Positions 933 through 4,287 of a stretch of 37,395 nucleotides of DNA are shown in pieces. Source of the stretch: Betaproteobacteria bacterium (GTDB lineage Bacteria > Pseudomonadota > Gammaproteobacteria > Burkholderiales > Burkholderiaceae_C); contig JANYBQ010000256.1 of assembly GCA_025360705.1 (NCBI GenBank), positions 1-37,395 of the forward strand. Reading direction: 5' to 3'. The position numbers were made by a program, and so were the translations under genes. Under the pieces are notes generated by a model. That model was given only the letters and a program-made list of their open reading frames with translations. It searched no databases and was not told the DNA's origin. Within the stretch, counting starts at the first letter, position 1. Each line of letters opens with the position of its first letter.

Positions 933-2318
933 TCAAAGCACGCCGTAACCAAAATGCCGCAGCGCGGCTTGCGCAACCGGCCCGCCGTGCTCCTGCACGA
1001 AGTGGCCGGCATGTTCAAGAACCATGGGCGGCGGGCAGGCACGGACTGTCTGTTGCAGCTGCTGCATCACTGGCAGGCCTAGTACCATGTCCTGCGCGCC
1101 GACCGCCATGAAGCTTTGGCCAGACCACTGCGTGCGCCAGAACTCACGCGCCCGACGCGAGACCTCGGCGCCATCGGAGTGTTCGAATTCCGGCACCATC
1201 GGAGCAAACGCGCGTAATGCGGCCCGATGTCCGCCATCCGGAAAAGGCGCCATGTAGGCAGCACATTCCGGTTCGCTCATGTGCGGGTTGCCGCGTGCAA
1301 ACAGCCGCGCAACATCGAACTCGGGATTCTTCGCGCACATCGCGCGCCAGGCCAAAAATCCAGCAGTCAAAGGCACATCTCCGGTTGCCAGCATCGTGTT
1401 CATGGCCAGCAGTCCGACATAACGTCGCGGCGCGGCCATCGGCAAGGTCAAGCCAAGCAGGCCGCCCCAATCCTGCACTACCAAAACGACCTGGTTCAAA
1501 TCCAGACGCTCAACGAACTCGATCAGCATCCGCCGATGCCACGTGAAGTCGTGGGCCGACTCTTTCTTCGGTTTGTCGCTTTTGCCAAAGCCGATCATGT
1601 CCGGCGCCACCACACGGTGTCCGGCTGCGAGGAATACCGGGATCATCTTGCGGTACAGATAGCTCCAGGCCGGGTTGCCGTGCAGGCATAACCAGGTCGC
1701 CGGCGCATCAAGCGGGCCCTCGTCCAGATAGTGCATGCGCAGACCGTTCAATGCAGGCAGATCGCTCACGTAATGCGGCTGCCACGGATAGCCCGGCAGG
1801 TTGGCAAACCGGTCGTCCGGCGTTCTAAGTGCATCGTCACGCACCGGGCTGCTGTTCATACGGGTCACCTCGCGTTTATGGGCAAAAAATTCCTGTAGCA
1901 CGGCTGAGCATTCAGAGGCCATCACACCGCCCTGGATGCGGGTTTGGTGGTTGAGTTGCGGGTGTGCGAAAAGGTTCAGGACGGAACCGGCGGCTCCGGT
2001 CTTGGGATCGCTGGCGCCAAATACCACACGCGCCAGCCGCGCATGCAACATGGCACCGGCACACATGGCGCAGGGTTCCAGCGTCACGAACAGTTCACAG
2101 CCATCGAGCCTGTAGTTGCCCAGCACGGCTGCCGCTGCGCGCAGCGCCACGATTTCGGCGTGTGCCGTTGGGTCATGGCCGGCAATCGGGTTGTTGTGGC
2201 CAGAAGCTATCACAACACCGTCTTTCACCACTACCGCACCGACTGGAATCTCGCCCGCGCTTGCGGCTAATCGCGCCTGCGCCAGCGCAAGTGCCATCCA
2301 GGATGGGTCGCCAGACAT
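933..2318 (-). CDS. tadA: Fusion: tRNA adenosine-34 deaminase TadA + DhlA-like haloalkane dehalogenase (HLD-I)
   Basis: 461 aa in two complete enzymes. Residues 1-152 are TadA, which converts A34 to inosine in tRNA-Arg(ACG): zinc ligands and catalytic Glu in HAE (His53, Glu55) and PCAMC (Cys83, Cys86). Residues 154-461 resemble DhlA-type haloalkane dehalogenases along their full length: HGNPAWSYLYRKM (oxyanion region), nucleophile Asp283 in VQDWG, halide-binding Trp284 and Trp324, acid Asp410 in GAQDMVLG and base His439 in AGHFVQE, the HLD-I order. No key residue is missing, so both halves should be active. The join has no linker: the dehalogenase half begins at Met154. It lies 6 bp after the PaiB-like gene. 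The dehalogenase substrate cannot be told from sequence; a related alpha/beta hydrolase activity such as epoxide hydrolysis is possible but less likely given the two Trp residues. Confidence 0.9.
   Translation of the reverse strand: MSGDPSWMALALAQARLAASAGEIPVGAVVVKDGVVIASGHNNPIAGHDPTAHAEIVALRAAAAVLGNYRLDGCELFVTLEPCAMCAGAMLHARLARVVFGASDPKTGAAGSVLNLFAHPQLNHQTRIQGGVMASECSAVLQEFFAHKREVTRMNSSPVRDDALRTPDDRFANLPGYPWQPHYVSDLPALNGLRMHYLDEGPLDAPATWLCLHGNPAWSYLYRKMIPVFLAAGHRVVAPDMIGFGKSDKPKKESAHDFTWHRRMLIEFVERLDLNQVVLVVQDWGGLLGLTLPMAAPRRYVGLLAMNTMLATGDVPLTAGFLAWRAMCAKNPEFDVARLFARGNPHMSEPECAAYMAPFPDGGHRAALRAFAPMVPEFEHSDGAEVSRRAREFWRTQWSGQSFMAVGAQDMVLGLPVMQQLQQTVRACPPPMVLEHAGHFVQEHGGPVAQAALRHFGYGVL
1857..1871 (-). 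promoter_or_regulatory. Internal Shine-Dalgarno and ATG at the TadA/dehalogenase border
   Basis: Inside the fusion gene, on the minus strand, GAGGTGA (1871-1865) stands 5 nt before an in-frame ATG (1859-1857, Met154). This ATG coincides with the expected N-terminus of a free-standing DhlA-type dehalogenase. It is a better start signal than that of the fusion itself at 2318. A separate dehalogenase of 308 aa may be made as well as the fusion. Confidence 0.55.
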
Positions 2319-3020: not shown

Positions 3021-3719
3021 TCAGATCATCGAGTGGCAATCGCCATACAACACACGCTGGTCCTCCACTCTGCGTACGCCCGGGATGTTCTCGGCGGCAA
3101 TACGTGCCGCCTCCTTGTCGGCTTCGCTTGCGAATACACCGACGTACCTCACAATGCCGTGGTAGACGAAGACTCTGGACCATTTTCCGTACCACCACGG
3201 ATGTTTCTCCAGCTCCCGGCGCAACTGGACCTGGATCTCCTCGTCAGGCTGTGTTGGTGGCGGGCCGATCATGTCCGTGTTGGCTGCCAGCGCCCGCACC
3301 AGATCGGCCCGCGTGACAAGGCCCACCAACTGGCCGCCGCGCAAAACCGGCACCCGCCGGACCCGGCGCGCTTCGAATATCGCCGCGATCTCGGCGACGG
3401 GCGCGTCCTCCTGCACCGACACCACCTCATGGTTCATCACATCCCGGGCGGAGCGACCGTGGGACTTGATGTACGCGTTCGGGGCCGGATCGGCCTGCGT
3501 CAGGCGCTGCCACCAGGTCCTGCTTGCCGGCCAACTGTCAGTACCGATCTCGTGGCGATGCAGCAGGTCGCCGTCTCCCACCACCCCCACCACCTTGCCT
3601 TGGTCGACAACCAGCACGCCGCTGATGCGGTGTTCCAGCAGCAATGCGACGATGCGCCGCAAGCTGGTCTCGGGCGTGACGGTGATGGCATGGGCCGTCA
3701 TGACGTTTTTGGCTTTCAT
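3021..3719 (-). CDS. CBS-pair and BON domain protein
   Basis: 232 aa, cytoplasmic, no signal peptide. Two CBS motifs (about residues 1-55 and 88-145) form a Bateman module, which normally binds adenosine nucleotides; the second carries VPVLRGGQLVGLVTRADLV. Residues 160-225 form a BON domain, a small fold linked with lipid or surface binding. CBS-BON proteins are common, poorly characterised, and often stress-related in beta- and deltaproteobacteria. The start ATG overlaps the stop of the DUF488 gene by 4 nt (ATGA), so the two are translationally coupled. Function beyond ligand-sensing is not inferable. Confidence 0.85.
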   Translation of the reverse strand: MKAKNVMTAHAITVTPETSLRRIVALLLEHRISGVLVVDQGKVVGVVGDGDLLHRHEIGTDSWPASRTWWQRLTQADPAPNAYIKSHGRSARDVMNHEVVSVQEDAPVAEIAAIFEARRVRRVPVLRGGQLVGLVTRADLVRALAANTDMIGPPPTQPDEEIQVQLRRELEKHPWWYGKWSRVFVYHGIVRYVGVFASEADKEAARIAAENIPGVRRVEDQRVLYGDCHSMI

Positions 3720-4198
3720 GGTCCGACTCCTTTCGGTTTAAGGCGCAGAAAGCGTCGCTCCATCAGGACCTGGCGCAAAACTGCCGCATTGTTGTGCAAG
3801 GGATCGTGCGCGTCGTAGAGCAGCGTCAACCGCCCCCGGTGGCGCAAATCATCCAGCAGCAACAGCAGGTCGTCACGTTGCGCGAGCTCCGTGCGATAAC
3901 GCTGCGTGAATGCCGTCCACCGGCTCGGTTCATGGCCGTACCAGCGGCGCAGCAGGCTGCTGGGCGCGACTTCCTTGAGCCAGAGATCGAGGGTCAGGTG
4001 CTCCTTCGCGATACCGCGTGGCCAGAGCCGGTCCACCAGGACACGCATGCCGTCATTGGCCGCTACAGTATCGCGGGCATGCTTGAGCACCACGGCGCGG
4101 CGTGTCCGGCCCGGGTGGGCGGAGCCAGCCGCGGCGACGGGGTTGTGGGAGCGGGCGGGGGTGACTAGGAGCATGGGGATTACGCTTTCCGTTCCCAT
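3716..4198 (-). CDS. DUF488 (YeaO-like) protein
   Basis: 160 aa. The DUF488/YeaO signature VLVDRLWPRG is followed by WLKEVAPS, LRRWYGHEP and RW..F..RY, all in the family order. The family has no established biochemical function. The frame stays open further upstream, but the ATG at 4198 is preferred because it follows AAAGGCGGA at suitable spacing. About 30 extra N-terminal residues precede the conserved domain and do not look conserved, so an internal start is possible. First gene of a two-gene unit with the CBS-BON gene (ATGA overlap), transcribed divergently from the LysR gene, with only 89 bp between the two starts. Confidence 0.8.
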   Translation of the reverse strand: MGTESVIPMLLVTPARSHNPVAAAGSAHPGRTRRAVVLKHARDTVAANDGMRVLVDRLWPRGIAKEHLTLDLWLKEVAPSSLLRRWYGHEPSRWTAFTQRYRTELAQRDDLLLLLDDLRHRGRLTLLYDAHDPLHNNAAVLRQVLMERRFLRLKPKGVGP

Positions 4199-4243
4199 CT
4201 TCCGCCTTTGATAAACACAAGTAAAGTGATATTTATTAGATAT

Positions 4244-4266
4244 TGAATGCAATAATTTTGCATTCA
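4244..4266. promoter_or_regulatory. Palindromic operator candidate between DUF488 and LysR genes
   Basis: A perfect inverted repeat with 9-bp arms (TGAATGCAA and TTGCATTCA) and a 5-bp spacer, in the AT-rich 89-bp divergent spacer. It ends 21 bp before the LysR start. LysR-type regulators typically bind such dyads in the promoter they share with a divergent target, so autoregulation and control of DUF488/CBS-BON is the simplest reading. The role is inferred; the repeat itself is seen. Confidence 0.6.
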
Positions 4267-4287
4267 TTCTTCGAAAATAGAACCTCC

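Follow-up and report, generated by a model that had tools for sequence, protein, structure and literature searches.

For the first half of the protein analysed here the best solved relative is E. coli TadA, and for its second half the best match in the PDB is DppA (E 4e-109), with DpaA and DhlA as further matches among the haloalkane dehalogenases of subfamily I (HLD-I). According to part of the account given in PMC8216470, the alphaC helix of TadA is required for binding of the anticodon stem-loop, and the eukaryotic ADAT3 extends a deaminase of this kind by an N-terminal domain that binds tRNA. We found no paper in the open literature that describes a fusion of TadA to a dehalogenase, which does not in itself establish that such a fusion is absent from print; a report on a dehalogenase-mining tool (PMC13355053) names no deaminase in the part of it available to us.

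Results

One reading frame for a tRNA deaminase and a haloalkane dehalogenase

The window, by which we mean the whole 37,395-nucleotide stretch of DNA that was analysed, carries at 933-2318 a single open reading frame of 461 codons plus stop, with its ATG at 2318, its stop codon at 933-935 and zero internal stops. It lies on the minus strand, as do all features given below, a point on which the preliminary description was silent. Its product consists of a complete TadA (residues 1-152; 1863..2318), a linker (residues 153-161; 1836..1862) that runs into the motif DALRTP, and a complete haloalkane dehalogenase of the DhlA type (HLD-I; residues 162-461; 936..1835). Profile scores and residue alignment thus confirm the one-frame layout originally proposed: the deaminase half scores 201.7 bits against NCBIfam NF008113 (cut-off 150, residues 4-153) and the dehalogenase half 309.3 bits against NF002043 (cut-off 265, residues 162-452).

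Both active sites have their catalytic residues in place. In the deaminase half the zinc ligands H53, C83 and C86 and the proton-shuttle E55 are all present, and they are conserved in 233 of 233 fused TadA rows. The five HLD-I residues named beforehand are likewise borne out by alignment to DhlA, whose residues D124, W125, W175, D260 and H289 we take to be its catalytic and halide-binding positions; these residues were verified in the DhlA gene that plasmid pDCA carries (L335). They correspond to the nucleophile D283 with the adjoining halide-binding W284 (1467..1472), the halide-binding W324 (1347..1349), the catalytic acid D410 (1089..1091) and the catalytic base H439 (1002..1004). Both halves of the window protein are therefore probably active enzymes, as judged from these residues, and since they share one frame the dehalogenase would be expected wherever TadA is made, in keeping with the constant output first suggested. 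An AF2 model of the protein (mean pLDDT 91.7; pTM 0.71, a value that leaves the arrangement of the domains unfixed) predicts a TadA C-terminal helix at residues 134-155, followed by a short linker of lower confidence.

The assembly from which the window comes (94% complete) contains one strong match to the deaminase model and two weak others of about 33 bits, and when the TadA half was used to search 160 genomes of the family, 155 had a match at E<=1e-25, exactly one in each. The same genome has a gene for tRNA-Arg(ACG) (L369, ARAGORN) in addition to those for tRNA-Arg(CCG) and tRNA-Arg(TCT), as recovered with a single search pattern that covers part of the tRNA set. The fused product is the sole TadA of the cell and would form inosine 34 in tRNA-Arg(ACG).

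Two neighbours on the same strand may be mentioned. A PaiB-like FMN_bind_2 gene (2325-2960) ends 6 bases ahead of the start of the tadA fusion, and the two probably form one transcript; further upstream, 3716-4267 encodes a DUF488 protein whose top Pfam match is the model named for the inactive DUF488-N3 subclade.

Spread of the fusion and its origin

A search of 399 genomes of the family found a match at E<=1e-20 in 383. We examined the tadA loci of 244 of these 399, a non-random choice made up of best matches, partial ones and others across genera, and found 49 fusions with the pentad intact and 125 in which it was altered or missing; the remaining loci comprised 68 without an extension, one with a frameshift and one ended by a contig edge. 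In the named collection, the best 80 of at least 584 relatives included 44 intact and 32 dead fusions, one whose hydrolase half was cut, one (L070) with an intact pentad and a TadA too short to class, and two without a TadA part in the contig. Sorted by record title, these best 80 of at least 584 divide as follows: fusions were intact in Polaromonas (9/9), Hydrogenophaga (2/2) and Ottowia (4/4, three of the loci being one species), mixed in Rhodoferax (5 intact, 2 dead) and Ramlibacter (3 intact and 1 dead, plus L070), and dead in Variovorax (18/18) and Alicycliphilus (1/1). Altogether we distinguish 82 intact fusions with the full DWWDH set, one of which (L078) belongs to family f3, and 151 dead ones, where "dead" denotes a fused extension lacking the full set (2 of the 151 retain four of the pentad residues and 11 retain three).

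The idea that the two began as neighbouring genes found no support: a separate, adjacent pair of tadA and dehalogenase genes did not occur among the family loci examined, the nearest thing being one dehalogenase piece in a second frame in the frameshifted L126. Two fused loci have broken frames, an in-frame TAG in G207:C62:35906-37303 and the frameshift in L126, which reflect either sequencing error or recent decay. We also considered a plasmid-borne copy and rejected it, as none of 279 matching plasmid records covers 80% of the fused query.

A FastTree phylogeny of TadA cores with 304 rows is split by a branch of support 87: the 235 rows that are fused, cut or frameshifted, the f3 member L078 included, all fall to one side of it along with 6 of the 69 rows classed as unfused, and the other 63 fall to the opposite side. 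This topology suggests that the fusion, which a large clade shares, arose once within the family. Among the six, L173 proves to be a fusion that runs into a contig end. Another, L160, is unfused in a genus that has full-length fusions (G031, G239, G307) and seems to be the clearest secondary loss of the whole extension, which would mean that TadA is able to work without it. Each of the remaining four may have lost the extension or may be misplaced on the tree. When fused-specific TadA columns were sought, just residues 88, 90 and 91 differed between fused and unfused rows by the cut-offs chosen, and residue 88 in the five complete unfused rows on the fused side is M, G, M, M and A, so that some of these five are possibly misplaced or transferred and not true losses.

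Decay of the enzyme and conservation of its shell

The nucleophile column of the dead rows holds P in 41, G in 39, A in 20 and D in 18, besides others, and the 18 rows that retain the aspartate have lost other pentad residues; 109 of 151 are shorter than 260 residues and lack the cap as well as a large part of the C-terminal half. One of the shortened ones, L095, scores 116.3 bits on NF002043, under the cut-off of 265. When the two nucleophile columns are left out of the tree, at least 5 changes between intact and dead are required; if the tree is rooted at its midpoint and regain is disallowed, the dead rows form 15 separate clades, although these rows evolve fast and their placement is unsure.

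The domain itself has nevertheless been kept. The frame is open in all 151 distinct dead extensions, and the length of the extension after TadA is two-peaked (at most 65 or at least 182 residues), with the frameshifted L126 (114) as the sole intermediate. By simple Nei-Gojobori counting over 99 of 102 computed pairs, which are non-independent, the median dN/dS of intact fusions is 0.146 for the hydrolase half and 0.145 for its TadA (12 pairs), and that of dead fusions is 0.29 (maximum 0.66) against 0.135 (87 pairs). By this measure the dead extensions are under purifying selection, weaker than that on TadA.

What is retained is most evident in three motifs: the PLRxDALRTP linker, PDLxGxGxSDKPKK around D240-K251, and PFPDxGH. 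In the window protein the latter two read PDMIGFGKSDKPK (residues 239-251; 1566..1604) and APFPDGGH (residues 357-364; 1227..1250), and both are common to intact and dead fusions. Across the alignment of the 151 dead rows D240, G243, G245, S247 and D248 are at 100% (rounded) and K251 at 97%. K251 is specific to this fusion: a pattern search finds it in 80 of the 81 intact fusions and in 141 of the 151 dead ones (5 more dead rows having R), and in 0 of 27 standalone dehalogenases and 0 of 4 f3 proteins. For G363 the pattern search gives 72 of the 81 intact fusions and 89 of the 151 dead ones; it missed 30 dead rows, and by alignment the residue is present in 98% of the dead.

An AF2 model of L095 (pLDDT 86.6; pTM 0.56, again leaving the domain arrangement unfixed) matches DppA and DhlA in Foldseek at E ~4e-13 over ~220-245 columns, the fit being loose (rmsd 4.5-9.6, TM to target ~0.48); a further comparison with VIA-align returned a list filled by deaminase chains, with nothing on the hydrolase part. 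Mean net charge is about +0.4 for dead extensions, -2.2 for intact ones and -3.5 for standalone enzymes; near-neutral, non-basic dead extensions do not favour RNA binding.

Two extreme cases deserve a separate word. The 429-residue extension of L252 (G079) has zero dehalogenase score by phmmer; three shell motifs can still be read in it (LREDALR, PDLLGHGLSDKPRR and APYPDAGH). In genome G041, the source of both L251 and L198, the fused extension is very degenerate (16.6 bits) and a full-length standalone dehalogenase (446 bits) is encoded elsewhere, as though it made up for the activity lost from the fusion.

These data bear on the simplest alternative, namely that a single stop codon was lost, that both enzymes went on with their own jobs, and that the second half decays where it is unneeded. 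Such a neutral fusion would account for the disappearance of catalysis in several lineages, for selection on the dead half that is weaker than on TadA (0.29 vs 0.135) and for the probable clean loss of the extension in at least one case, L160. It does not sit well with 151 distinct dead frames that all remain open, with the lack of stubs of 65-182 residues other than L126, or with the persistence of the same motifs across dead lineages, even in L252, and we consider it rather unlikely. The preliminary description had offered a choice between such a neutral fusion and a tie between detoxification and decoding. The choice itself is not supported, because neither idea predicts a dead site in a conserved domain, and the commonest state among the fused loci examined is exactly that, a lost site with the domain kept under purifying selection.

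A putative internal start in the linker

The question whether one or two products are made, raised at the outset, was apt, since the linker contains a ribosome-binding site and a start codon: a Shine-Dalgarno-like GAGGTGA (1865..1871) lies within the frame five bases ahead of an in-frame ATG (residue 154; 1857..1859), the putative start of a free dehalogenase. An ATG at residues 149-164 occurs in 33 of the 81 intact fusions of the family, and in 22 of these a Shine-Dalgarno (SD) sequence accompanies it. Control windows of matching size from other parts of the intact genes have both in 11 of 1977 cases (odds ratio 67 against 22/81); for the intact linker read in its two other frames the figure is 2 of 162. 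The 151 dead fusions have a linker ATG in 2 and the combined site in none; control windows in the dead genes give 12 of 3042, so that less than one site is expected by chance and 0/151 is no depletion in its own right. The associated probabilities (8e-25 for linker against control windows, 1e-11 for intact against dead) treat the rows as independent, which they are not. On the tree the site changes 15 times, and a comparison of the intact state with the internal start yields between 4 independent pairs (on starred branches) and 7, numbers much too small to reach significance; of the 4 starred-branch pairs, on average about one goes in the expected direction and none in the opposite one, which is non-significant.

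We infer that the window gene probably also gives a free dehalogenase from this start. The site resembles a remnant of the start that the dehalogenase gene once had for itself, and it would have been kept while a free enzyme was useful.

One could go further and regard the locus as mainly a compact two-gene unit, in which the internal start yields free dehalogenase and the fused protein arises incidentally from the loss of the tadA stop. The enrichment of the site in the linkers of intact genes, relative to their control windows, fits this proposal, as does its presence in the window and, by eye, in 4 of 4 fused f3 genomes. It is at odds with the 59 of 81 intact fusions that keep the pentad without the site, from which it follows that, by the rule chosen, a second product is not general, and with the dead fusions, which retain the domain with 0/151 sites. 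We hold it to be distinctly improbable as the whole explanation.

A second family with the same fusion

Of 300 genomes covered by an order-wide search at E<=1e-60, 27 had a match, and 4 of the 27 belong to family f1. The other 23 loci comprise 4 TadA fusions, all in family f3, where 4 of 5 genomes are fused and, as judged by eye, the linkers of 4/4 fused genes carry the SD and ATG, and 19 standalone dehalogenases, none of which (0/19) has a TadA within ~1.5 kb of flank. The f3 dehalogenase halves nest among the standalone enzymes on the tree, and the log-likelihood falls by 65 units when they are forced together with 20 intact f1 fusions (AU p 0.002), the grouping so tested having been chosen after sight of the first tree. 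For the TadA half a single fused clade of f3 and f1 is not rejected (AU p 0.80 and 0.56). As the dehalogenase half rejects one clade and the TadA half allows it, there were either two fusions, or one in which the dehalogenase half was later replaced. On these trees f3 is a small second family with the same fusion and a different dehalogenase lineage.

That the same two families were perhaps joined twice (f3 halves among the standalone dehalogenases, AU p 0.002) could be taken to indicate a metabolic link, in which the decoding of tRNA is protected or regulated through the dehalogenation of some halogenated or alkylated compound. The TadA half, however, allows one fused clade (AU p 0.56), so that replacement of the dehalogenase is also possible; moreover, dead fusions outnumber intact ones among the fused loci examined (125 vs 49), which means that the chemistry is dispensable. 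We deem such a link very improbable. Finally, although the window comes from a 701-contig assembly, an artefact of assembly or annotation has next to no probability and is ruled out by the recurrence of the same in-frame join, with no stop between the halves, in relatives represented by many independent assemblies, single-contig genomes such as G003, G015, G262, G294 and G299 among them. The two outcomes that the preliminary description had named as refuting it, a stop and start between the halves or absence of the join from all close relatives, are thus not what the relatives show.

Discussion

The surprise of this locus lies in its relatives, which suggest that the dehalogenase is dead as an enzyme in several lineages and has yet been kept on TadA. 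The explanation that we favour, by a small measure over its negation, is that of a tadA-dehalogenase gene fused once, with active enzymes and an internal start in the window and with a second, non-catalytic role of the hydrolase domain. In this scenario the tadA of an ancestor within the Comamonadaceae-like section of the GTDB family would have lost its stop codon and been joined to a DhlA-type dehalogenase gene, leaving an alpha/beta-hydrolase domain to hang from the end of the TadA C-terminal helix, which binds the anticodon arm. There the domain would have taken on a second role that is independent of dehalogenation. Given such a role, the catalytic site would be free to be lost, and several lineages would then have dropped it, many of them together with the cap, and the shell with its conserved motifs would have stayed.

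Open frames, a length of at least 182 residues, purifying selection and the kept motifs together argue that the hydrolase domain probably does have a role on TadA without need for dehalogenation. What this role might be can be approached by analogy: with a helix that binds the stem-loop, a hydrolase hung on that helix and the precedent of ADAT3, a shell that holds or orients the tRNA or stabilizes the TadA dimer would be the most natural candidate, and tRNA handling is our best guess. The fuller version of this proposal, that a dehalogenase was turned into a tRNA-handling or dimer-stabilizing domain of TadA, that its activity then died in several lineages and that the two families were joined again in f3, we put forward tentatively, as a possibility that falls somewhat short of even.

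Whatever the role, the fusions provide a natural series that leads from an active enzyme to a dead shell, all on one essential tRNA-modifying enzyme, and standalone dehalogenase relatives persist in the same order; with both at hand, the step from catalytic to accessory domain is directly testable. In practical terms, proteins filed here as only a TadA or only a haloalkane dehalogenase may be both, or may be a TadA with a dead hydrolase, a mixed identity that matters for dehalogenase mining as well as for TadA-based tools.

Set against the known systems, the deaminase half has the normal zinc ligands and catalytic glutamate of TadA (E. coli 1z3a, S. aureus 2b3j), and the difference lies in what follows, as the TadA chains matched in the PDB have a length of ~144-183 residues and the window protein adds an alpha/beta hydrolase of ~300. 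This second half resembles the HLD-I enzymes (DhlA 1ede, DppA 2xt0, DpaA 7avr) in being of full length with the full catalytic pentad; it differs from them in being joined to TadA and in having K251, which none of the 27 standalone members has, and many of its fused relatives carry a dead site, 109 of the 151 dead ones being shortened to less than 260 residues. With ADAT2/ADAT3, as far as the part of PMC8216470 drawn on here describes them, the fusion shares the principle of a wobble deaminase with an added domain, which offers a possible model for how the shell might act; the domain there is unrelated, sits at the opposite end of the protein and works in a heterodimer, and we therefore use the comparison as an analogy only.
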